Source: Chloroflexota bacterium (GTDB lineage: Bacteria; Chloroflexota; UBA5177). From it: a stretch of DNA of 33,680 bases. The stretch spans positions 1-33,680 of the forward strand of contig QHBP01000302.1 in NCBI GenBank assembly GCA_003244175.1, written 5' to 3'. The notes below the pieces were generated by a model. The model ran no database searches and had not been told where the DNA came from. It worked only from the letters and a program-made list of their open reading frames with translations. Made by a program: the position numbers and the translations under genes. Below are positions 1,927-29,367 of this stretch, in pieces; within the stretch, counting starts at the first letter, position 1, and each line of letters opens with the position of its first letter.

Positions 1927-2643
1927 GTGAATTTCGTCGACCGCTTCGAGACCTTTATCGAACGACTGATGGAGCGCACTTTTACGCGTGCCACCCGAAG
2001 CCACCTCCAACCAGTGGAAATCGGTAAGCGAATTGTTCGCGCCATGGAGAGCCAGCAATCGGTGGGCGTCGACGGAGTGATCGTGCCCAACGTGTACGAC
2101 GTCCACCTCAGTCCACGGGACTATGCGGAAGTCGAACCCATGCGTCGCTCTCTCGCCAAGCAGATGGAGCAGCACGTAGGCCGGGTGGCGCGGCAGCGCC
2201 GATTCGTGCTTGTCAGCCGTCCCGTCGTGACACTACAAAGCGAGGACAAGCTCTCCGCGGGCGATGTGCGGGTGACCCCGCGCCTCCAAGACGTCGATAC
2301 CCGGGCGGGACAACAATTCCAGCATACGGCCATGCTTCCCCAGTTGGAGGGACCGATCCGCAATGGCCCGGCAACCCCGAATGTCATCGTAAACGGACGT
2401 TCTCACGCCGTGCTGCGTTCGCCCACACGCGTCGGCCGCCTGCCGGACAACGATATCGTCTTCGACGACAAGCGCGTCTCCCGTCACCACGCGGAATTCG
2501 TACAGCAGGGGACGCGCTGGACGATGCACGACACCGGCAGTACGAACGGAACGGCCGTCAACGGCAAGATCGTGAGGGAAGCTGTCCTCCGACCTGGAGA
2601 CACGATTTCTCTTGGCGGCCTCGAGGTGACGTGGGAGCAGTAG
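1927..2643 (+). CDS. fhaA: FhaA-like protein: DUF3662 domain plus C-terminal FHA domain
   Basis: FHA domains bind phosphothreonine peptides. FhaA of actinobacteria sits at the cell wall synthesis site and binds phosphorylated partners such as MviN. Residues 1-115 match the DUF3662 domain that starts FhaA proteins (RFETFIERLMERTF, then LQPVEIGKRIVRAM). Residues 116-150 form a short linker. The FHA domain follows, with GR at 170-171, SRHH at 185-188 and STNG at 205-208, all the phosphopeptide-binding signatures. At 238 residues it is much shorter than mycobacterial FhaA because the linker is reduced. The GTG start fits the family N terminus and sits right behind a -10 box, so translation is probably leaderless. 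It is the first gene of the fhaA-fhaB-rodA-pbpA operon. Confidence 0.9.
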   Translation: MNFVDRFETFIERLMERTFTRATRSHLQPVEIGKRIVRAMESQQSVGVDGVIVPNVYDVHLSPRDYAEVEPMRRSLAKQMEQHVGRVARQRRFVLVSRPVVTLQSEDKLSAGDVRVTPRLQDVDTRAGQQFQHTAMLPQLEGPIRNGPATPNVIVNGRSHAVLRSPTRVGRLPDNDIVFDDKRVSRHHAEFVQQGTRWTMHDTGSTNGTAVNGKIVREAVLRPGDTISLGGLEVTWEQ

Positions 2644-2650
2644 CCACCTC

Positions 2651-3082
2651 TTGAACGTCGACGACATCCTCCTGGTGGGTCGGGTGCTGTTCATTGTGGC
2701 GCTCTACCTGTTCTTGTTTCTGCTGGCGGCACTGTTGAGGCGGGAGCTGCGCCAGTCAGCCTCCCCGAGCGAGGAGCGAGGCCCCGCGGACCTGTTGCTC
2801 GTCGATCCCGCCGAAAGCGGCCTCGATGCGGGTGAGCGCATTCCTCTCCTTGCCCTCTCGCGCGTCGGTCGTAGCGCGGATAACGATGTCGTGCTCGACG
2901 ACACCTTCGTCTCCACCGAGCATGCGCGTCTGGTGTGGAACGGCAGGGGTTGGGTCGTCGAGGACCTGAAAAGCACCAACGGTACGCGAGTCAACGGCCA
3001 TCCGGTCAAGAAAACCACCGCCGTGAAGCCCGGAGACACCATCGAATTTGGGCGGGTCAAGGGCAAGCTGGTGACCCTGTGA
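2651..3082 (+). CDS. fhaB: FhaB-like membrane-anchored FHA-domain protein
   Basis: The product has 143 residues: an N-terminal transmembrane helix (about residues 8-30), a short linker and one FHA domain facing the cytoplasm. FHA signatures are intact: GR at 73-74, S88 and H91 in VSTEHAR, and STNG at 108-111. In actinobacteria the equivalent FhaB/FipA links septal and elongation complexes to Ser/Thr phosphorylation. The start is the TTG at 2651, 7 bases after the fhaA stop; no clear ribosome site is visible, so coupling to fhaA is likely. It overlaps rodA by 4 bases (GTGA). Confidence 0.88.
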   Translation: MNVDDILLVGRVLFIVALYLFLFLLAALLRRELRQSASPSEERGPADLLLVDPAESGLDAGERIPLLALSRVGRSADNDVVLDDTFVSTEHARLVWNGRGWVVEDLKSTNGTRVNGHPVKKTTAVKPGDTIEFGRVKGKLVTL

Positions 3083-5879: not shown

Positions 5880-6740
5880 ATGGGTGTATCGACAGTCGGC
5901 GTAGTCGGAGCAGGGCTCATGGGCTCGGGAATCATCGAGCAGTCCGCTCGCTGCGGCTACAACGTCGTCGCCCGGGAAATCGACGAAACGGCCGTGACGG
6001 CGGGCCGGAAGCGCGTCCGGGACTCCATGGATCGCGGCATCCAACGCGGCAAGTTTCCGGAAACGGTACGTGACGAGGCCCTTGATCGCATAACCTGGAC
6101 AACCGAGCTGCGAGACCTGAAGGCGTGTGATCTGGTGATCGAGGCAATAGTCGAGCATCTCGAGAGAAAGCGGCGGCTCTTCGCGGAGCTGGACCTGGTT
6201 ACTGGACCCCACACCATTCTGGCTACCAACACATCTTCGGTCAGCATTACAGCCATCGCTGCCGCAACCAAGAGACCACATAAGGTGGCGGGCGCCCACT
6301 TCTTCAATCCGGTGCCAGTCATGAAGCTGGTCGAGCTCGTACGCGCGCTCCAGACGAGCGATGAGACCATGGACTGCCTTCGCCACTTCGGCGAATCGCT
6401 CGATAAGAAAGTAGTCGTCGCCAAGGACACGCCCGGTTTCATCGTCAACTACCTTCTGGTTCCGTATCTCCTAGATGCCGTGCGGGCGGTGGCGGACGGT
6501 ACCGCAACGGTGGAGGACATCGACACCGCGATGACCCTGGGAACGGGCGTCCCCATGGGCCCGTTGACCCTCTTGGACTTTATCGGAGTGGACACAACCC
6601 TCTACATCGCGGACGTGATGTACGACGAGCTTCGAGATCCGAAGTACGCGGCCCCTCCGCTCCTTCGAAAGATGGTCAGTGCCGGCTACTACGGAAAGAA
6701 GAACGGCCGAGGATTCTATGACTACGCCAATGGCGGATAG
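5880..6740 (+). CDS. hbd: 3-hydroxyacyl-CoA (3-hydroxybutyryl-CoA) dehydrogenase
   Basis: The enzyme interconverts 3-hydroxyacyl-CoA and 3-oxoacyl-CoA with NAD(P)H, in beta-oxidation or in butyrate/acetoacetyl-CoA metabolism. The product has 286 residues. The Rossmann fold begins at once with GAGLMG (residues 10-15). H140 in HFFNPVP is the catalytic His of the family, and the helical C-terminal domain ends in [13 protein letters not shown], the standard signature. The ATG at 5880 is preceded by AAGGAG (5865-5870) at good spacing and matches the family start; the frame is open back to GTG 5805 but that adds an unrelated 25 residues. Its 3' end overlaps the enoyl-CoA hydratase gene, the enzyme of the neighbouring reaction step. 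Confidence 0.93.
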   Translation: MGVSTVGVVGAGLMGSGIIEQSARCGYNVVAREIDETAVTAGRKRVRDSMDRGIQRGKFPETVRDEALDRITWTTELRDLKACDLVIEAIVEHLERKRRLFAELDLVTGPHTILATNTSSVSITAIAAATKRPHKVAGAHFFNPVPVMKLVELVRALQTSDETMDCLRHFGESLDKKVVVAKDTPGFIVNYLLVPYLLDAVRAVADGTATVEDIDTAMTLGTGVPMGPLTLLDFIGVDTTLYIADVMYDELRDPKYAAPPLLRKMVSAGYYGKKNGRGFYDYANGG

Positions 6741-19996: not shown

Positions 19997-20773
19997 TTAC
20001 GGCGCGAGCCATTCGATAGCGTCTGTTTGAGTCATCTCGCCCAACGTCGAATCCAGCACTCCGTGCACCCTGACCATGTCGGCTTCCTCAATGGTGCCGA
20101 GCGAAAAGCCTCTCTGGAGCGGCCCCGAGGCATGTGTGCCCGGGTCGATGTCCACTACGATCGACAGCCCACCAGAGACCTGAAGAATCATTGTCTGCAT
20201 GTCTACCTCGGGCGCTGAAGCGACGACTCCGGTAACACTTTTCGTCACCTGCGACGTATCTCTTAGACTTCCGTCCGCGTAGCGGATGAGACGGTCGCCG
20301 GGAAGGAGTCGACCGGCCGCCAGATTCCTCCCGTCATCGGCGGTCAATCGGCTTCCGCCACGCATGAGAAACGCTCCCACGCCTCCGTCAGTCAAGCGCA
20401 CGGCGATACGCGACAAGGGACCATCCGCGTGGACAGCAATCACGCTTCCAACCGTTGATGGTGCTCTCCGGGTCGGGCTGCCATTCAGGCCGTGCGTGCT
20501 TGCGTTGTGAAGGAAGGCGAGCGCACTCGGCGCAAACACCGATAATCCCAACACGACGGTCACCGCAAACACACACATCACGTTAAGCGTGTGGCGCCGG
20601 CTGGAGCACGACGGACCTCCGTGAGAGGAGGACGGCGTCACCGCGCCGCGAGAAAGCTCTGACCCGAGCGCGCGGTGACGCCTATGAGAAGATGCGATCG
20701 TTGAAGCCCGCACGGCCTGACGGTGAAAGTATGAGATAGGGACAAACGACCGTTGTCGAGGCCTCCAAAACAT
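19997..20773 (-). CDS. Exported OB/DUF5666-like hypothetical protein (regulon member A)
   Basis: The 258-residue product has a basic 60-residue N terminus, a hydrophobic helix at about residues 65-88 ending in SALAF (signal anchor or unusually long signal peptide), and an extracytoplasmic part of about 170 residues. That part shows two beta-rich repeats (STVGSVIAVHADGPLSRIAVRL and SVTGVVASAPEVDMQTMILQV) resembling the tandem OB-like folds of DUF5666 proteins. This is only pattern-level similarity. ATG 20773 has GGGAG 7 bases upstream. Its promoter carries the three-site TCTCAG operator shared with the protein at 25003 and with the response regulator, so I infer co-regulation. Confidence 0.72.
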   Translation of the reverse strand: MFWRPRQRSFVPISYFHRQAVRASTIASSHRRHRALGSELSRGAVTPSSSHGGPSCSSRRHTLNVMCVFAVTVVLGLSVFAPSALAFLHNASTHGLNGSPTRRAPSTVGSVIAVHADGPLSRIAVRLTDGGVGAFLMRGGSRLTADDGRNLAAGRLLPGDRLIRYADGSLRDTSQVTKSVTGVVASAPEVDMQTMILQVSGGLSIVVDIDPGTHASGPLQRGFSLGTIEEADMVRVHGVLDSTLGEMTQTDAIEWLAP

Positions 20774-20823: not shown

Positions 20824-20878
20824 ACTGTAAGGCGCTGCCCTGAGAAGGGCAGTCAACAATACTGAGACTTACCTGAGA
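20824..20878 (-). promoter_or_regulatory. Promoter/operator A: three TCTCAG sites plus -10 TACAGT
   Basis: On the minus strand TCTCAG sites lie at 20873-20878, 20862-20867 and 20840-20845 (steps of 11 and 22 bases), then 10 bases, then TACAGT at 20824-20829. The predicted +1 is near 20817, giving a 44-base leader to the ATG at 20773. The 11-base direct-repeat step is what OmpR/PhoB-type regulators bind. The same layout occurs at 25704-25758 and 28134-28188. Confidence 0.8.
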
Positions 20879-21065
20879 GGGCGGAGGTCGATGTCTCATG
20901 TAAACACCCGTTCACGAGAAAGTCATCAATTTGTCATGCGAACCCAACGTATTTCTCACTATTCCACCAGTAGCATGAAGAACACGTGAAAGGACATGCA
21001 TTGAGCCATCGACTCGCTTTGAGAGGCTGCCGGGGCGCATGGAGTGCATCGCGGAGGTCTTCGCC

Positions 21066-21134
21066 ATGAGCATCCTGACATCGCCGAGAACGCGAGGTCT
21101 CAAGTGCACGCTTTACCGAGGCGTCCCGAACTAG
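21066..21134 (+). CDS. 22-residue upstream ORF (possible leader peptide)
   Basis: An ATG at 21066 has an excellent GGAGG site (21053-21057, 8-base spacing) and encodes 22 residues starting MSILTSPRTRG. Its TAG stop overlaps the GTG of the ferric-reductase-like gene as TAGTG. That gene has no ribosome site of its own, so ribosomes ending the leader probably reinitiate at the GTG. Whether the peptide has any role beyond coupling is unknown. Confidence 0.5.
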   Translation: MSILTSPRTRGLKCTLYRGVPN

Positions 21135-22522
21135 TGAATATTCGAGCTCGACCCGGAATCGGCCCGTGCGGGAGCGTACGCGTTGCGGGCACGTCTGAGC
21201 ACGCCTTCGAGGTTGCGAAACTCAGCGTCATCTGGTTGGTGGTCCTTGGCAACACTGTGGCAATTGTCTGGCTCTGGCTAGCCGGAGGTGGCGTGTCCGG
21301 CGTTCACGGAGTCGCCGACCTGCTGACCAGCACGGGACGGATCACGGGACTGCTCGGGGCCTACTTCCTCTTGCTACAGGTCCTCCTGCTGGCTCGGCTG
21401 TCATGGATTGAACAACGCGCCGGCTTTGACAGGTTGACAATCTGGCACCGCCGCAACGGGAAACTCTCTCTCGGCGTGATCGTGGCACATACCGTCCTCA
21501 TAACGCTCGGATACGCGATGACAGACAAACTCTCCATTCCGCGCGAGGCCTCACAGCTTTTGACGAGCTACCCCGGAATGGTTACGGCGACGGTGGGGAC
21601 CGGGCTGCTCGTCGTGGTCGTGCTCACCTCGCTCGTCATCGTCCGGCGCCGGCTGCGGTACGAGGCCTGGTATCTCGTCCACTTCATGGCGTATGTGGGC
21701 ATCATCCTGGCTTGGAGCCATCAGATTCCAACAGGGAACGAATTTTCGGCGAGTCCGGCCGCTGCCGCTTACTGGACCGCGCTGTATCTTGCAACGCTCG
21801 CGCTGCTCGTTCTCTTTCGGCTCGCTCAACCGATTGTCGGCGCGTGCCGCTTTCGCCTGCGCGTGGCCGACGTCAAGGTCGAGAGCGGGAGCGTCGTCTC
21901 GCTCAGCATCACTGGCGACCGGCTTGACCGACTCAACGCCCGTTCCGGCCAGTTTTTTCTCTGGCGATTCCTCACCTCGAGCCGCTGGTGGGAGTCGCAC
22001 CCGTTCTCGCTGTCGGCGGCGCCACGGGACGACGTTCTGCGGATCACGGTGAAGAACGTCGGCGACTTCACGAGTCACATTGGCGACATCGCTCCCGGCA
22101 CTCGGGTGGTAGCAGAGGGCCCATTCGGCGTGTTTACGGGCTCACTTCGCACCCGCCCGGGAGTCGCCCTCATAGCAGGCGGAATCGGCATTACGCCAAT
22201 CCGTGCGCTGGTCGAGGACATGTCTGGAGACCTCATCCTCGTCTACCGGGTCTTGCGAGACGAAGACCTCGTGTTTCGACACGAGCTTGAACATCTTGCA
22301 CGGGACCGAAGCGTTAGCCTGTGCTATGTGGTAGGAGACCACGCAGCGCCTGGCGGCGAAAGGCTCCTCTCGCCGGAGCACCTGCGTCAGCTGATTCCAG
22401 ACATCGCAGACCGCGAGGTATATGTCTGCGGACCTCCGGTCATGGCCCGGGCTATCGAGACCGCTGTCCGGCGGGCCCACGTGCCATCTAAATACATCCA
22501 CGTCGAGCGCTTCGCCCTCTAG
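21134..22522 (+). CDS. Ferric-reductase-like transmembrane flavocytochrome / ferredoxin-NAD reductase
   Basis: The 462-residue protein joins a membrane heme-b domain (about six helices, residues 25-255) to a cytoplasmic FAD/NAD(P)H reductase domain. Candidate heme ligands are the His in LTIWHRRNGKL, IVAHTVL, LVHFMAY and WSHQ. FAD binding shows in RSGQFFLWRF and HPFSLSAAP, and NAD(P) binding in IAGGIGITPIRAL and VYVCGPPVM. The protein should move electrons from NAD(P)H across the membrane. GTG 21134 was chosen because it overlaps a leader ORF stop; the frame is open upstream to 21044. It lies 29 bases before an FMN-binding protein gene that is its likely electron acceptor. Confidence 0.88.
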   Translation: MNIRARPGIGPCGSVRVAGTSEHAFEVAKLSVIWLVVLGNTVAIVWLWLAGGGVSGVHGVADLLTSTGRITGLLGAYFLLLQVLLLARLSWIEQRAGFDRLTIWHRRNGKLSLGVIVAHTVLITLGYAMTDKLSIPREASQLLTSYPGMVTATVGTGLLVVVVLTSLVIVRRRLRYEAWYLVHFMAYVGIILAWSHQIPTGNEFSASPAAAAYWTALYLATLALLVLFRLAQPIVGACRFRLRVADVKVESGSVVSLSITGDRLDRLNARSGQFFLWRFLTSSRWWESHPFSLSAAPRDDVLRITVKNVGDFTSHIGDIAPGTRVVAEGPFGVFTGSLRTRPGVALIAGGIGITPIRALVEDMSGDLILVYRVLRDEDLVFRHELEHLARDRSVSLCYVVGDHAAPGGERLLSPEHLRQLIPDIADREVYVCGPPVMARAIETAVRRAHVPSKYIHVERFAL

Positions 22523-22551
22523 TCCTTCAGAGATCACACAGAGGAGTACTC

Positions 22552-22941
22552 ATGAACCGATCCATTCCCGCCTTCCTATTGACAGCCTTAGCCGCCGTGT
22601 CGGCCGAAAGCGGATCCACAGTAGCGTCCGCTCGCACCAGCGGAGCCACGTCACACAAGTACAAGGGCCCGTCGGAGGCCATGCGCTGGGGACCGGTGCG
22701 GGTGACGATCACCGTCAAAGGCAAAAAGCTGACGAACGTCAAGGCCACCGCGCCAAACGAACGGGAGCGCTCGGCAATCATCAATGAGCAGGCCCTACCG
22801 ATCCTCCGTGAAGAGGCGCTGACAGCCCAAAGCGCCACCGTCGACGAGATCTCCGGCGCCACACTGACGAGCGATGCCTACGCTCAATCGCTGCAGGGCG
22901 CGCTCAAGAAGGCTCACTTCAAGAGCCCGCAGGGACAATAG
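22552..22941 (+). CDS. Exported FMN-binding domain protein
   Basis: The 129-residue product has an N-terminal signal peptide (about residues 1-27) followed by one FMN-binding domain. It shows RWGPVRVTITVKGKKLTNV and INEQALPILREEAL, then the flavinylation motif SGATLT, in which the final Thr is the expected site of phosphoester FMN attachment by ApbE. A GAGGAG site precedes the ATG. It forms a two-gene operon with the ferric-reductase-like protein and should carry electrons outside the membrane. No apbE is found in this window, so the transferase must be encoded elsewhere. Confidence 0.92.
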   Translation: MNRSIPAFLLTALAAVSAESGSTVASARTSGATSHKYKGPSEAMRWGPVRVTITVKGKKLTNVKATAPNERERSAIINEQALPILREEALTAQSATVDEISGATLTSDAYAQSLQGALKKAHFKSPQGQ

Positions 22942-23179
22942 CTCCCTTCTCCACCGATCCGGCCTAGGCCTACGGTGATCCGCACTCAACACCGGTTGGG
23001 TAGGGTCCGCTGGCCAACGAACCACGTTGAACATCGGCCGATCGCCTCCCCTGCACTCGGTCGACTTTGAAGGGCTGACTCTCTCGATCCCGAGCGCGGG
23101 CTGCTGGCGAGCAGCTCGTGCGAAGGTAACACCTTCTACGCGCGGAGAGGCTCCGTCCGTGGAGACCCGGGAGTCGAGT

Positions 23180-24361
23180 CTATGGCGTCGGAGAAAGAGC
23201 TAACGCCGAGGCCGCCAGGCCGGATACGCGCGGGGTTCCCCAGCCGGTGACCGCATCCCAGCCGGGCTTTGCCTTGTAGCGCCCATTGCTTCCACTCGTG
23301 ATGTCGTCAAAGGCTTGGACGTACGAGGGGGAGTTGGCGACACGGTACAACACGGTAGGGGCCGTTCCCACCTGTTTGCCCGCCTTTTGCGCGTCCTCCC
23401 GAATAAGCGCCCAGATCCCCGCCCAAGCAGGGGAACCAAGACTTGTACCGCCCGCTTGACCCCATCGTCCGTTGAAGTAGACCGCAACTCCCGTCGACGG
23501 GTCGCCCAGAAAGGCCACGTCCGGCACGTAGCGATACTTGCCGGGCAGTAGAGTCAGCGCCATCTGCCAGGACGGGCGCCGCAACGGGGATCCCTTGCCA
23601 CCACCGCTCAGCTGCCAGGCTGTCTCCGCTAACGTCGAGTTGTCGTCGGCGAGAGTGAGGGACGTTCCACCAACCGACACGACCGAAGGGTCGGAAGCCG
23701 GGTACGTGACTCCCGGTTTTGAACCGCACTCATGACGTGGCCCCGGATACTGGCCCGAGTCTCCGCTGCTGACAAAAACGCTGACGCCTGCACCAAGGGC
23801 AGCCGCCAGGGCCTTTTGCACCGCCTTGTAGCCGGTCGAGGTCCGGCACGCGCCAAAGGAGATACTGATCGTGCCGGCACCTCCGGACGCCGCCGCACTC
23901 AGCGCCGTCGCAAACCCCCTCCAACCGGAAGCACTTGGCTGCCCGTTTTTCAGGTAGTACACCTGAATTGCCGCACCGGGCGCTAGAGCGTGAGCCCATT
24001 CAATATCCAAAGTCGTCTCGAGTCCCGCGGTCCGCGCGAAGGTCTTGCCATTCGGGTAGAACTCCCGGATGGTGGGATCGGGAAGCTGGTTGGCGGCGTC
24101 AAATTCCTGCAGGTCGGCAACATTGAAACGATCCAGCTCGATAAGGGCGATTGTCTGCCCGGTTCCATCCACACCGCGATCGAGCATCGACTTCACGTCG
24201 TACGCCTGTTGAATTTGTGCAGGTGTGTAAGACGTGGCGAGCTGCCGCGTTTGACCAAGAGCGAAGAACAGAGCCGGTTGGGCCCGTGTCGCTGACAGGG
24301 AGGCGGGTGCGGCGAGCAGCGCGCTTGCCGCGAGAAGTGGGATCAAAATTCGACGGAGCAC
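23180..24361 (-). CDS. S53 family peptidase (sedolisin/kumamolisin-like) without propeptide
   Basis: Sedolisins are secreted serine-carboxyl endopeptidases active at low pH. After a signal peptide (residues 1-27) the 393-residue product goes straight into the catalytic domain (SYTPAQIQQAYDV at 44-56). Catalytic residues are visible: E115 and D119 (ETTLD), oxyanion Asp D201 (SSGDSG) and nucleophile S307 (GGTSLGSPAWAG). The C-terminal calcium site DDITSGSNG, with Asp in GWDAVTGWGTP, is present. The usual prodomain of roughly 150-180 residues is missing. The start is GTG 24361 with AAGGA upstream. Confidence 0.92.
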   Translation of the reverse strand: MLRRILIPLLAASALLAAPASLSATRAQPALFFALGQTRQLATSYTPAQIQQAYDVKSMLDRGVDGTGQTIALIELDRFNVADLQEFDAANQLPDPTIREFYPNGKTFARTAGLETTLDIEWAHALAPGAAIQVYYLKNGQPSASGWRGFATALSAAASGGAGTISISFGACRTSTGYKAVQKALAAALGAGVSVFVSSGDSGQYPGPRHECGSKPGVTYPASDPSVVSVGGTSLTLADDNSTLAETAWQLSGGGKGSPLRRPSWQMALTLLPGKYRYVPDVAFLGDPSTGVAVYFNGRWGQAGGTSLGSPAWAGIWALIREDAQKAGKQVGTAPTVLYRVANSPSYVQAFDDITSGSNGRYKAKPGWDAVTGWGTPRVSGLAASALALSPTP

Positions 24362-24469
24362 CGGTGAATCCTTACTTACTACTTAGGTATTGATTCTTAA
24401 CTATGAGGCGAAGGGTCAGCTTCTGCAAGCATACCCGCTAGCCGAAGTTGTAAATGCGAGAATGCCGAG

Positions 24470-24880
24470 TCAATGCGGGGACTGGAGTGACTCCAGCGCT
24501 TGAAAAGAGCTGGAGAGAGCGCGCCTGAGATGCTGAGTCACCTCACGATCATCCAACGTGAGGTCGTCCAAGAGGACCTGTCGCAAATGACCTTCCATCT
24601 TATCCAACGATGCCAGAGCGATGGCTGCGCGGTGGGTCCGTCCCTCGCGTCGAACCAGCCTGCCTACCAGAGTGTTAAGATCACGGTTTGCCAGCTTGAG
24701 CATGCGCGCGGTCCGGAGAAGTGCTATGTGCCCGGTCTCATTACTCTCCAGAGTATTCGTCAGCTTCACGCACAGGGATTCGATCCTGCAAAGATCTATC
24801 GGCCTCTTCACAGCTGAAGCTCTCGGAGGCATGGCCCCGACTCCGTCCAATGACAAGGGCATCGATGACCGGTTCTGCAT
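24470..24880 (-). CDS. Hypothetical helical protein
   Basis: I do not recognise this 136-residue product. It is mostly alpha-helical by pattern, rich in Leu, Arg, Asp and Glu, without signal peptide or membrane helix. The best-formed part is LARMLKLANRDLNTLVGRLVR-like heptads at about residues 55-80 and a second helix near the C terminus. ATG 24880 has GGAG 6 bases upstream; ATG 24832 (MPPRAS) is an alternative. It lies between the S53 peptidase and the DUF5666-like gene in the same direction. It could be a short regulator or a false ORF. Confidence 0.45.
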   Translation of the reverse strand: MQNRSSMPLSLDGVGAMPPRASAVKRPIDLCRIESLCVKLTNTLESNETGHIALLRTARMLKLANRDLNTLVGRLVRREGRTHRAAIALASLDKMEGHLRQVLLDDLTLDDREVTQHLRRALSSSFQALESLQSPH

Positions 24881-25002
24881 TCCATTCTCCGGGAGGCATA
24901 GTCCGACACCGTGAGTGCGTCGCGTACGTAAAGCCGATTGCCTGGCAGCTCGCGCGGAATCGGCTCAACCCTGCGCCAGCCGGCGGTGACGGGTGACGAG
25001 CC

Positions 25003-25641
25003 TTAGCTGCTGAGAATCTCGACGAAACGAGCGGCGCCGGCCGCGTCCTTGAAGACGCGCACCGTCTGTCCCGCGGCGAGGTCGTTGACGGTGCCAACCA
25101 TGACTTTAATAACCGTCGTATTCGCGGCGAGAGCATAGCTGGCTGTGCGGCCACGCGCATCACGCAGGGTTAGCGTGTTGCCCACCAAGGAGACCACCTG
25201 TCCTCGATGCATCTTGGCCTGTGCTCCGCTTCGACCGACTCCGGTCCCAGCGCGTTTCGAGGTCTTCCCCGATTGCGGAGACTTGTGTGTGTGTTTCCCA
25301 GGGTGTCCGCTCATGATCGAGGGAAGCAACGTGATTGTGCTCGCGACTGTCGCGCCCGTGGCCGAGCGAACCTCCGCAAAAGCGCCGGCGGTGACATCGG
25401 CAGTACTACCCTTCGCGTAGCGAACGAATTGCGTGCTCGTCATTAGGGGGACGCTGACGCTTCCGCTTTGCGTCTGTACCGTCACGTTCTGCTTGCTCGT
25501 ACTCACGACTATCCCCTGCACCGCCGGCTGACGGGCATGTTTAGGGTGCGTGCCGTGCGCGTACGCGCCCCCGGCACCGAACCCAAAGGCCAGGGGAAGC
25601 AACAGACTTGCCGCTATCTTTGGCAAAAAACGTCGGATCAT
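25003..25641 (-). CDS. Secreted DUF5666-like protein (regulon member B)
   Basis: The 212-residue product has a clear signal peptide (residues 1-28, ending GGAYA) followed by a His-containing segment. It has two beta-barrel-like repeats. The first is VQGIVVSTSKQNVTVQTQSG with TQFVRYAKGSTADVTAGAFAEV; the second is GQVVSLVGNTLTLRDARG with NTTVIKVMVGTVNDLAAGQTVRV. This alternation of a G-V-V strand, a dT-x-I strand and DLxxGxxVxV is the DUF5666 pattern. A Lys/His/Gly-rich linker joins the repeats. Function is unknown. AGGGAG precedes the ATG at 25641, and its promoter shares the three-site operator with the response regulator, which supports control by that system. Confidence 0.8.
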   Translation of the reverse strand: MIRRFLPKIAASLLLPLAFGFGAGGAYAHGTHPKHARQPAVQGIVVSTSKQNVTVQTQSGSVSVPLMTSTQFVRYAKGSTADVTAGAFAEVRSATGATVASTITLLPSIMSGHPGKHTHKSPQSGKTSKRAGTGVGRSGAQAKMHRGQVVSLVGNTLTLRDARGRTASYALAANTTVIKVMVGTVNDLAAGQTVRVFKDAAGAARFVEILSS

Positions 25642-25703
25642 TCAATTCTCCCTTTCGCATCGAGGACGCCACTCCGGCGCTGGTTGATTCCACCACTCGT
25701 TCC

Positions 25704-25758
25704 ACTGTACGAGGGCGCCCTGAGATACAGCAGACACCAAACTGAGACTTCGCTGAGA
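25704..25758 (-). promoter_or_regulatory. Promoter/operator B: three TCTCAG sites plus -10 TACAGT
   Basis: On the minus strand TCTCAG sites lie at 25753-25758, 25742-25747 and 25720-25725, then 10 bases, then TACAGT at 25704-25709. The spacing is identical to operator A. Matching bases also extend past the hexamers: ACTGAGACTT (plus strand) occurs in both. The predicted +1 is near 25697, giving a 56-base leader to the ATG at 25641. The site begins 29 bases after the histidine kinase stop codon. Confidence 0.82.
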
Positions 25759-25786
25759 ACTCTTTTTGGGCCAGGTCTGCACCGCC

Positions 25787-27388
25787 TTAAGCGCCCGTCG
25801 TCGTCGCTTGCGACCGGCTCTCTCCTGGCTCCTTGTTCGACTCGATGTTGTCGTCGACGTTAGAAGCGGCGCGGGGAAAAGCGACTTCAACGGTGGTTCC
25901 ACGGCCTAACGCCGTGTCGATGCGGATCCTCCCACCATTGGCCTCGACAAGCGACTGGACGATGGACAAACCCAGACCCGATCCGCCACTCTCTCGCGAT
26001 CGGCTCTTGCTCGCCCGATAAAAGCGCTCGAACACTCTCTCCGCGTCCTCGGAAGACAGGCCCGGACCGTCGTCATGCACGTCTATCGACACGGAGGCCG
26101 AGTCTGATCGGCCCGACATGGTCACCGGCTGCCCCGCCGAGCTGAATCGGATTGCATTGTCCACGAGATTTATCAGGATGCGTGTGAGCGCTTCCGGTTC
26201 AACGTACGCGCTTGCTGAGCCCCATGCCGGCCCATTGACGGCTATTACGTTGTCACGCCACGCCGGCCCGTAGCGCTCGACGAATTCCATGACGAACTGG
26301 CGAACAGGCACGGGTTCTGGATGGAACGACTGGGACGTGTGCAGCCGTGTCAGCGTCAAGAGATCATCGACGAGCTTCGAAAGACGCACCGTTTCCAGGT
26401 GAATAGCCCTGAGAGCCTTCTCGTAGTCGGCACGATCGACCCTTTGCCGAAGCAGGATTTGCGACGTGCCCCGAAGCGCCGTCAATGGGGTTCGTAGCTC
26501 ATGCGAGGCGTCGGCCAGAAAGCTCCGCATGCGCTCCTCGGAACGGCGTGCGGACGAAAGCGCCTCTTGGAGACGGTCGACCATGGCATCGAATGCACTT
26601 CCCAGCCGGCCGACCTCGTCGGCCGTGCGCTCGAGATGGGCGCGCTGGTCGAGGTCGCCTCCGGCGATCGCTTCCGCTGTCTGAGCGACCCGGTGCAGCG
26701 GACGAAGAGCCCGATTGATGATCGGAATGGCGGCGAGAGTCGCCAGCAGCAGGGCCATAACCGCCCCCAGACCAAAGACTATCTGCGCACGACGCACAGT
26801 GTCGTGGGCCGCGAGCAGGGAGCGGCCGAGAATCGCGTATCCATCGACGCGACCCGGGGGACCGAGGGGCACCGCAATGAGCAGGAGGTTGTCTGATGTC
26901 GCGGACGGTGGCGCGAGAGGGTGACCGTGAGGTCGGTGTCTTGGTCTGTGCCGCGGGATGCCGTTTGCGCAGAACGTCTTGCTGCCGGCAGTCACATTCC
27001 GCGCCGCCGGCGCGGCCGAACGTATGAGCCCGCGAATAGTCGCCGTCGACAACTGCATTGCCTGCAGGTTCCCCGGCTCGCCGAAGCCGTGATCGGCCAG
27101 GGTCGCTCCCTGTGGTGTCACAATCTTTACCCCAATCTCCCTGGATCCGAGAAGGCGAGCCAGCCGCTCCGCGTTCCCATACAGGTCTCCCGGAGACCGG
27201 ACGATACAAGGCCCCAGGACCACCAGCTCCGAGCGAGCCGTATCGCGAATGCTGTCGAAGGTGGTGACTCGCAGGTAGTTGGCCAGGGTGACGGACTGAA
27301 AAACGCCGAGGGCGAGCAACAAGAGCGCCATGACGCCGAGATACCACACGACGAGCCGTCCGCGTATTGTCGTCAGCCGGTTCCACAC
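25787..27388 (-). CDS. Two-component sensor histidine kinase with His-rich sensor loop
   Basis: The 533-residue membrane kinase has helix 1 at about residues 12-36, an extracytoplasmic sensor domain (37-200), helix 2 at 202-224, HAMP (224-276), HisKA with phosphoaccepting H296 in SHELRTPL, and a HATPase domain with the N box NLVDNAIRF, G1 DDGPGL and G2 GGSGLGL. An insertion at about 145-157 in the sensor domain reads PRHRPRHRPHGHP, which could bind metal ions or sense pH. GTG 27388 has AGGA upstream and starts 9 bases after the response regulator stop, so the two are one operon. The C-terminal tail of about 30 residues is polar and unstructured. Confidence 0.94.
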   Translation of the reverse strand: MWNRLTTIRGRLVVWYLGVMALLLLALGVFQSVTLANYLRVTTFDSIRDTARSELVVLGPCIVRSPGDLYGNAERLARLLGSREIGVKIVTPQGATLADHGFGEPGNLQAMQLSTATIRGLIRSAAPAARNVTAGSKTFCANGIPRHRPRHRPHGHPLAPPSATSDNLLLIAVPLGPPGRVDGYAILGRSLLAAHDTVRRAQIVFGLGAVMALLLATLAAIPIINRALRPLHRVAQTAEAIAGGDLDQRAHLERTADEVGRLGSAFDAMVDRLQEALSSARRSEERMRSFLADASHELRTPLTALRGTSQILLRQRVDRADYEKALRAIHLETVRLSKLVDDLLTLTRLHTSQSFHPEPVPVRQFVMEFVERYGPAWRDNVIAVNGPAWGSASAYVEPEALTRILINLVDNAIRFSSAGQPVTMSGRSDSASVSIDVHDDGPGLSSEDAERVFERFYRASKSRSRESGGSGLGLSIVQSLVEANGGRIRIDTALGRGTTVEVAFPRAASNVDDNIESNKEPGESRSQATTTGA

Positions 27389-27397
27389 CGCGCGATC

Positions 27398-28099
27398 CTA
27401 GGCGTTCAAGCGGTACCCGATGCCGCGCACCGTCTCAATGATCCTCCGTTCCTGATCACGTAGCTTTCTGCGAAGGTACCCAACGTACACTTCCACGTTG
27501 TTCTGGTCGCCATAAAAGTCGTAGCCCCAGACGCGATCGAGAATCAGCTGCCGCTCCAACACCCTCCCGGGATTGAGGACGAAGAGCCGCAACAGCTCGT
27601 ACTCCTTTACGGAGAGGGACACGTCCCGACCGTCGACCGTGACACTGCGCCTCCCTTGATCGACCACGATTCCGCCGGCGCGCAGAATGTCCTCTTGTAC
27701 TGGAAAGCGTCGCCTCGTAACTGCGTGGATCCGTGCCAGCAGCTCGTCGAAATCAAACGGCTTGACCACATAATCGTCCGCACCCGCCTGAAGGCCGGCT
27801 ATCCTCTCCGGCACCTGATCACGCGCCGTAAGCATGATGATCAATAGGTCGGGATCCGCTCGCAGCCGGTCGGCCACGTCCAGACCATCCAAGCCGGGAA
27901 GCATGAGGTCAAGGATGACGAGATGAGGCTTGAAGCGCCCCACGGCTTCGAGCGCCGACGGCCCGTCCCCCGCGACCGCAACCGAATAGCCCTCGTATCG
28001 CAGTCCAAGACGCAGAAAATCCGTAATGTGCGTCTCATCGTCCACCACCAGCACGCGTACCTGTTCAGTTTCGAAGGTGTTTGCGAGGTACTGCGCCAA
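27398..28099 (-). CDS. OmpR/PhoB family response regulator
   Basis: The 233-residue product has a receiver domain (VRVLVVDDE acidic pair at residues 20-21, phosphorylation site D64 in VILDLMLPG, K in VVKPFD) and a winged-helix DNA-binding domain ending in VYVGYLRRKL and IETVRGIGYRL. I chose TTG 28099 because GGGGAG lies 6 bases upstream and because the shared promoter (28134-28188) would otherwise lie inside the coding region; the ATG at 28168 is upstream of the predicted +1. It precedes its sensor kinase by 9 bases. The operator in its own promoter implies autoregulation. Confidence 0.94.
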   Translation of the reverse strand: MAQYLANTFETEQVRVLVVDDETHITDFLRLGLRYEGYSVAVAGDGPSALEAVGRFKPHLVILDLMLPGLDGLDVADRLRADPDLLIIMLTARDQVPERIAGLQAGADDYVVKPFDFDELLARIHAVTRRRFPVQEDILRAGGIVVDQGRRSVTVDGRDVSLSVKEYELLRLFVLNPGRVLERQLILDRVWGYDFYGDQNNVEVYVGYLRRKLRDQERRIIETVRGIGYRLNA

Positions 28100-28133
28100 A
28101 ATTAGCTCCCCTTCCGGCAAACTCTCCCACTTG

Positions 28134-28188
28134 AGGATACTGAAAAAAGGTGAGAGGTGTGTCCGCACTTTCTGAGATTCGGCTGAGA
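28134..28188 (-). promoter_or_regulatory. Promoter/operator C (response regulator): TCTCAG sites plus -10 TATCCT
   Basis: On the minus strand TCTCAG lies at 28183-28188 and 28172-28177. A one-mismatch third copy, TCTCAC, is at 28150-28155, then 10 bases, then TATCCT at 28134-28139. The spacing equals operators A and B exactly. The predicted +1 is near 28127, which gives a 28-base leader with the GGGGAG site before TTG 28099. Confidence 0.78.
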
Positions 28189-28244: not shown

Positions 28245-28277
28245 TTGACAAGTCGTCGAATATTGTGATATTGTCAA
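28245..28277 (+). promoter_or_regulatory. Promoter of the SPFH gene with overlapping palindromes
   Basis: A consensus -35 TTGACA (28245-28250) is followed after 18 bases by TATTGT (28269-28274). Two inverted repeats overlap it: TTGACAA (28245-28251) with TTGTCAA (28271-28277), and AATAT-TGTG-ATATT (28259-28272). The heptamer ATATTGT also occurs twice with an 8-base step (28260 and 28268). A repressor binding here would cover the -10 region. The predicted +1 is near 28281. Confidence 0.65.
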
Positions 28278-28404: not shown

Positions 28405-29367
28405 ATGGTCGTCATCCCAGTCGTCGTAGCACTCGCCGTCCTCTTTGTTCTCATCGTCGGCATCAGATCCATTCGTCTAGTTCCGCAGGCCAGGGTCGTC
28501 ATCGTTCAACGGCTGGGGCGCTACTTGAAAACGGCAGGCAGCGGTCCCGTCTTCGTCCTGCCCTTCGTCGACAAAATCCTGCCGACCATCGACCTTCGCG
28601 AACAGGTGGTCCCGTTCCCGCCACAGGCCGTCATCACCTCGGACAACGTTGGCATTCAAGTGGCGACCGTCGTGTATTACCAGATCATCGACGCCAAGAA
28701 CGCTTCGTACCGCGTGGTCAACCTGGTCGCGGCTATGGAACAGCTCGCCATGACGTCCCTGCGCAATGTCATCGGCGGCTTGACTCTCGACCGAACTCTG
28801 ACGAGTCGAGAGGATATAAATGCGAAGATGCGCGTTGTTCTGGACGAGGTAACTGAGGGGTGGGGCGTGCGTGTAACCCGCGTAGAGCTCAAAGACATCA
28901 TTCCGCCGCACGACGTTCAGCAAGCGATGGAAAAGCAGATGCAAGCGGAAAGGGAAAAGCGAGCCGCGGTCCTGCGTGCGGAGGGAATGAAGGCATCGGC
29001 TGTCCTCCAGGCGGAAGGCGAGAAACAAGCGGCAATCCTCACAGCCGAGGGCAAGCGGCAATCGTCAATCGTCCAGGCCGAGGGCGACGCTCAGGCTCTG
29101 GTCACGGTTCAGGAGGCACAAGCACACGTTATTCGAGTTGTCTTCGCCGCCCTCACCGCCGCCCGTCCCACCCCGGAGATCCTGAAGTACCTCTACATTC
29201 AGGCGTTACCGAAGATGGCCGAGGGAACTGCTAACAAGCTGTTCGTGGTCCCTTCCGAGCTGGAGAATATCGCCAGTCTGGGCGCGACCTTTTCCGCGGC
29301 CGCCCAAAATGGCCAGCCCAATGACACCTCGACGGACCGCCTCTTGACCGGAGCGAACGAACAATAA
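28405..29367 (+). CDS. SPFH/Band 7 (stomatin-like, slipin) protein
   Basis: Stomatin-like proteins form membrane rings that organise lipid domains and proteases. The 320-residue product has an N-terminal membrane helix (residues 2-20) and the SPFH domain (about 22-190: VPQARVVIVQRLGRYLKT, DLREQVVPFPPQAVITSDNV, VTRVELKDIIPP). A long Ala/Glu-rich coiled coil (about 190-245, repeats of the AEGEKQAA type) and a C-terminal tail follow. The GGGAGG site fits ATG 28405. The partner NfeD protease often linked to slipins is not seen. The gene sits behind a leader with a terminator, so it is likely controlled by attenuation. Confidence 0.94.
   Translation: MVVIPVVVALAVLFVLIVGIRSIRLVPQARVVIVQRLGRYLKTAGSGPVFVLPFVDKILPTIDLREQVVPFPPQAVITSDNVGIQVATVVYYQIIDAKNASYRVVNLVAAMEQLAMTSLRNVIGGLTLDRTLTSREDINAKMRVVLDEVTEGWGVRVTRVELKDIIPPHDVQQAMEKQMQAEREKRAAVLRAEGMKASAVLQAEGEKQAAILTAEGKRQSSIVQAEGDAQALVTVQEAQAHVIRVVFAALTAARPTPEILKYLYIQALPKMAEGTANKLFVVPSELENIASLGATFSAAAQNGQPNDTSTDRLLTGANEQ

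Follow-up and report, generated by a model that had tools for sequence, protein, structure and literature searches.

Why would three promoters on a single contig keep the same short words at exactly the same distances, and which protein would read them? The question is raised by a 33,680-nt stretch of contig QHBP01000302.1 from a Chloroflexota bacterium (UBA5177; assembly GCA_003244175.1), the whole of which will be named hereafter the window. The 55-bp pattern TCTCAG-N5-TCTCAG-N16-TCTCAG-N10-TANNNT occurs in it three times, always on the minus strand and with 0, 0 and 1 mismatches, and in none of 100 dinucleotide shuffles. Among the three promoters the spacers differ in sequence while their lengths are constant, the steps between the TCTCAG repeats being 11 and 22 bp. 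A first, sequence-only reading of this DNA had described three elements with identical spacers, a single deviating hexamer (TCTCAC at 28150-28155) and gene starts at 44, 56 and 28 nt from the predicted +1 positions, all of which proved exact. The third 11-bp register, between the second and third hexamers of that reading, is itself occupied by degenerate hexamers (TTGACT, TGTCTG and GCGGAC), and the array is therefore best described as four registers, DR1-DR2-DR3-DR4. Since DR3 is often a recognisable half-site in other Chloroflexota families, the N16 can be read as N5, a degenerate half-site and N5; that is, judging from the sequence comparison, it hides a decayed half-site.

In promoter 1 (20824-20878, minus strand), TCTCAG stands at DR1 (20873-20878), DR2 (20862-20867) and DR4 (20840-20845), DR3 is TTGACT (20851-20856), and the -10 element TACAGT (20824-20829) places the predicted +1 at ~20817. 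Promoter 2 (25704-25758, minus strand) has DR1 at 25753-25758, DR2 at 25742-25747, DR3 (TGTCTG) at 25731-25736 and DR4 at 25720-25725, followed by TACAGT at 25704-25709 and a predicted +1 at ~25697. Promoter 3, the putatively autoregulatory one (28134-28188, minus strand), has DR1 at 28183-28188, DR2 at 28172-28177, DR3 (GCGGAC) at 28161-28166, the deviating TCTCAC as DR4, and TATCCT as -10 at 28134-28139 (predicted +1 ~28127). A purine-rich Shine-Dalgarno sequence precedes all three gene starts, and none of the three sites has a sigma-70 consensus promoter or a recognisable -35.

Promoter 3 lies before a minus-strand gene (27398-28099) for an OmpR/PhoB-family response regulator composed of a receiver (PF00072, E=1e-29) and a Trans_reg_C domain (PF00486, E=7e-27), with the recognition helix NNVEVYVGYL. 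Its start is best read as the TTG at 28099, behind GGGGAG; the GTG at 28168 given by a mechanical ORF list was rejected, as it lies upstream of the predicted +1. Nine bp downstream of the regulator, on the same strand, a sensor histidine kinase is encoded (25787-27388) with two transmembrane segments and HAMP, HisKA and HATPase_c domains, as expected of a cognate kinase in the same operon. Just upstream of the regulator's array, the plus strand carries a sigma-70-like TTGACA with a 16-18 bp spacer (28245-28274) facing a divergent Band_7 gene (28405-29367).

The other two promoters lie before genes for proteins that the sequence-only reading had called exported DUF5666/OB-like proteins, a description that holds in part. 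Both products (target 1, 19997-20773, and target 2, 25003-25641, minus strand) carry a hydrophobic segment of the export-directing kind. The structural model of target 2 consists of two five-stranded barrels with a pLDDT near 90, OB-like by their strand pattern, and that of target 1 is of low confidence; Foldseek searches with the two models gave no significant match. The DUF5666 label is weak, in that neither target gives any match to Pfam PF18914 at all and the sister-genus orthologue in genome G002 falls short of the cut-off (E=0.02, 15.5 bits against 27 needed). A small helical protein encoded downstream of target 2 (24470-24880, minus strand) keeps its position in G002 and G005 and is a probable operon partner of target 2. 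Further along the minus strand, an exported subtilase/sedolisin-like protease (23180-24361) follows this gene pair without an array of its own, and a ferric-reductase-like flavoprotein gene (21044-22522, plus strand) diverges from promoter 1.

The arrangement is rare in the host and is kept by its relatives. In the draft genome (3.7 Mb, 440 contigs, 82% complete), a search that allowed as many as 3 mismatches of 22 returned the three window copies only, all in these promoters, where the expected count is zero and the reversed-control pattern has 0 matches, so that the pattern does not occur at chance frequency. A fourth exact TCTCAG-N5-TCTCAG (G000:C88:1334) was discarded, being without a third repeat and without a -10. 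Within the window's family, matches were obtained in four of five genomes; the fifth member (G003) and the more distant G001 and G006 gave no match and are without a close orthologue or the triple array. In three sister genera (G002, G004 and G005) the triple repeat stands upstream of the target 2 orthologue, adjoining orthologues of the regulator (66-70% identity) and of the kinase, and in G004 the target 1 orthologue comes next in line, also adjoining the regulator (L111:3610-4278). The regulator's own promoter is less uniform among these relatives: in G004 another array points at the regulator gene and has TATGTT at N10, G005 has a partial one (TCTAAG, TCTCAG, CCTCAT), and the regulator gene of G002 is without an array of its own. 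Two contigs of G004 (C230 and C231; L113:1-441 and L114:7144-8944) carry an apparent second regulator and kinase copy, ~70% identical to that of the window and split across the contig ends.

The search among these relatives asked for the repeats and not for the -10, and it therefore served as a blind test of the latter. YANNNT was found at exactly N10 in all six of the relatives' sites, and TANNNT in five of them (p ~1e-11). Three of the six have 2 mismatches and stand ahead of genes for an exported phosphodiesterase-like protein, a MacB/FtsX permease and a glycosyltransferase (L008, L010 and L012). The idea that these were chance matches is contradicted by their YANNNT at N10, and they are probably real. 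The permease site, in G005 (L010:1501-1539), adjoins a genuine DUF5666 protein (2473-3039, E=1e-11), and would thereby link DUF5666 to the regulon in a relative.

Conservation extends well beyond the family. Across 400 Chloroflexota genomes, 35 matches were recorded in 28 genomes against 0 for reversed controls, while a version with a 12-bp step, searched at the same scale, gave 8 matches against 4 controls, none of the 8 being in the window's family. When the regions flanking 56 homologous regulators were scored, TCTCAG stood out at the 11-bp step alone (15 against 0 to 1). Many of the distant sites consist of four TCTCAG repeats at the exact 11-bp step, and at two of them all four repeats are perfect. 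Among 33 distinct sites, YANNNT occurs at N10 in 20 and at any other offset in no more than 5; with the window's family left out, the probability of the N10 excess is ~1e-22 under independence, some of the sites coming from related genomes. The distant arrays have unrelated spacers and unrelated downstream genes. By reading of their sequences, these genes appear to encode, among others, copper-type P-ATPases, cupredoxin-like proteins, exported proteins and lipoproteins, a cytochrome b, a TerC-like protein and the regulators themselves. On one contig (L098, G034:C49), two minus-strand arrays, at 6376 and 3957, lie before genes for a cupredoxin-like protein and a P-ATPase of the copper type, which suggests that this regulator group has to do with copper or redox processes in family f21. 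A further 37 genomes, mostly from other phyla, gave 2 matches and 0 controls. One match is in Clostridium manihotivorum (CP025746, position 936180; L228:1501-1560), where TCTCAG-N5-TCTCAG-N16-GCTCAG-N10-TATAAT directly follows a histidine-kinase-like gene and stands ahead of an ApbE gene. As this array lies outside the phylum, Chloroflexota are probably not the only bacteria with this arrangement.

What would a protein bound to such an array do? Repeats bound by PhoB replace the -35 element, and some OmpR-family regulators repress from positions between the -35 and the -10. The promoters described here have a geometry closer to that of SARPs such as AfsR of Streptomyces, in which an OmpR-type DNA-binding domain recognises repeats 11 or 22 bp apart, the last of them ~8 bp from the -10, and sigma adaptation makes up for a poor -35 (PMC10936776). 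The window promoters likewise have steps of 11 and 22 bp and no consensus -35, with 10 bp between the last hexamer and the -10. SARPs differ in carrying a BTA domain and in not being response regulators, whereas the window protein has a receiver and gave no BTA match. The constant distance of 10 bp between DR4 and the -10, the want of a sigma-70 consensus and the 11/22-bp steps, taken together under the SARP rule, argue for activation by replacement of the -35 and for positive autoregulation. It could be objected that the regulator binds the arrays but mainly represses, since DR4 sits in the -35/-10 spacer region, where a bound protein would block RNA polymerase. We regard this as improbable, because the distance from the last repeat to the -10 is held at 10 bp throughout the phylum, a constancy that would fit a docked activator and is shared by SARP promoters (PMC10936776), and because there is no usable -35 with which the promoter could work alone.

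Activation by the window's own regulator further presupposes that the arrays belong to this protein and not to another one, e.g. some other response regulator of the host genome, which holds roughly 40 response-regulator matches, or a SARP-like activator. In 14 distant array-bearing genomes, 22 to 152 matches to the window regulator were counted per genome, and in six of them (G018, G155, G256, G104, G240 and G074) the top-ranking match is encoded within 8 kb of an array, against ~0.1 of 14 expected by chance as estimated from the sizes of the genomes. The distant arrays are often found in the promoter of this best-matching regulator or directly behind the gene of its kinase. In the large genomes G339, G345, G357 and G363, the regulator adjoining the array ranks lower but is still among the top few. 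When regulators were picked by similarity alone and an array was sought within 1.5 kb, one was found for 11 of the 19 carrying the helix NxxEVY[VI]xYL and for 2 of the 40 others (Fisher p 1.5e-5, descent ignored); some regulators with this helix have no array within that distance. The regulators with arrays cluster on a tree (8 changes against 13.7 when shuffled), but a single clade is unsupported, and the arrays are therefore tied less to one proven lineage than to a helix type and a neighbourhood. The want of a single clade and the existence of arrays without a regulator gene nearby could both favour another owner. Such an owner seems quite unlikely, though, given that the arrays occur repeatedly in the promoter of, or beside, the regulator most similar to that of the window, among the 42 to 112 matches that each genome offers, and that they travel with the orthologous regulator in four genera. 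These results also bear out the sequence-only reading in its view that the 11-base step fits an OmpR/PhoB-type box, the 11-bp arrays being conserved and linked to the regulator, which would bind them directly, and in proposing a two-component regulon, since the arrays are kept beside homologous regulators and kinases in sister genera and in distant families. Its proposal of autoregulation stands with a reservation: arrays are often found in the regulator's own promoter in distant families, and G004 conforms, but G002 does not. Finally, recent duplication or chance without function, to which the AAG before the second hexamer and the identical -10 (TACAGT) shared by promoters 1 and 2 might point, can be dismissed as next to impossible, since the spacers differ in sequence but hold their lengths, arrays recur in distant genomes in unrelated surroundings, and the phylum counts (35 vs 0), the 12-bp control (8 vs 4) and the blind N10 test (6/6) speak against it.

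We therefore consider it highly probable that the element serves the response regulator of 27398-28099 as its activator box, activation as such being somewhat less certain than the assignment of the box to this regulator. The kinase would phosphorylate the regulator, which would then bind head-to-tail to TCTCAG half-sites that follow each other at one helical turn (11 bp). A first dimer would occupy DR1/DR2, and another would join it cooperatively on the degenerate DR3 and the strong DR4. Because DR4 lies 10 bp from the -10 and no -35 is recognisable, the regulator bound there most likely takes the place of the -35 and docks region 4 of the RNA polymerase sigma factor, in the manner of PhoB and the SARP activators. 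As a result, the regulator-kinase operon would be switched on by positive feedback, together with the two exported OB-like proteins. The whole is very probably a self-regulating sensor-regulator circuit of the ordinary PhoB/PhoP-like type that uses a recognition word of its own.

The distinctness of this word is apparent from a comparison with characterised relatives. The E. coli protein PhoB is of the same family and its pho box also has 11-bp direct repeats (PMC4832192), but the half-site is CTGTCAT, and the window regulator scores below the cut-off of the PhoB equivalog TIGR02154 (206.4 bits against 296.2), i.e. it is not a member. RR_1586 of Clostridioides difficile, an OmpR-family protein found by motif search and comparative genomics, also has direct repeats at an 11-bp step and autoregulation, but its half-site is TTAAG and its targets are sporulation genes (PMC6222199). 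MprA was rejected as a model, the motif given for it in one paper being TKTTAAGAAM and not TCTCAG. The closest solved structure is that of Mycobacterium tuberculosis PhoP (194 bits), which binds TCACAGC-N4-TCACAGC as a tandem head-to-tail dimer with an 11-bp step (PMC4832192). The PhoP half-site is one base away from TCTCAG, with A in place of T at the third base, and the three promoters, like the sites elsewhere in the phylum, have TCTCAG and not TCACAGC. Base contacts of PhoP are made from helix alpha 8 by N212, V213, E215, S216, Y217 and Y220, Ser216 being part of a water-mediated contact at the third base (PMC4832192). The window regulator has N, N, E, V, Y and Y at these positions; that is, four of the six are identical (N212, E215, Y217 and Y220), with V213 replaced by N and S216 by V. 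The latter change would suit the methyl group of a thymine at the third base. The two systems also differ in promoter layout, as the distance of the third repeat, which helps at several PhoP promoters, is variable there and the autoregulatory repeats lie downstream of +1 (PMC3413638), whereas spacing is fixed in the window arrays.

On a broader scale, the TCTCAG arrays may represent an old, widely kept code of one response-regulator group across Chloroflexota, with at least one similar array, behind a kinase gene, in Clostridium. Such a code would be a SARP-like sigma adaptation by true response regulators, which would dock RNA polymerase at a constant distance of 10 bp from the -10 without a -35, and the S-to-V change in the helix would explain the A-to-T difference from the mycobacterial PhoP box; we put this forward tentatively. 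Systems of this type are well known, but neither the half-site and its spread through the phylum nor the regulon seems to have been described, the searchable open literature containing nothing relevant on TCTCAG half-sites or Chloroflexota response-regulator boxes. An experimentally testable regulon has in this way been obtained from sequence for an uncultured Chloroflexota class, together with a word to search for throughout the phylum, TCTCAG four times at an 11-bp step and then 10 bp to TANNNT, which predicts copper ATPases, cupredoxins, lipoproteins and DUF5666-type proteins as targets. The covariation between protein and DNA would make it possible to test directly how recognition helices of the OmpR family select their half-sites.
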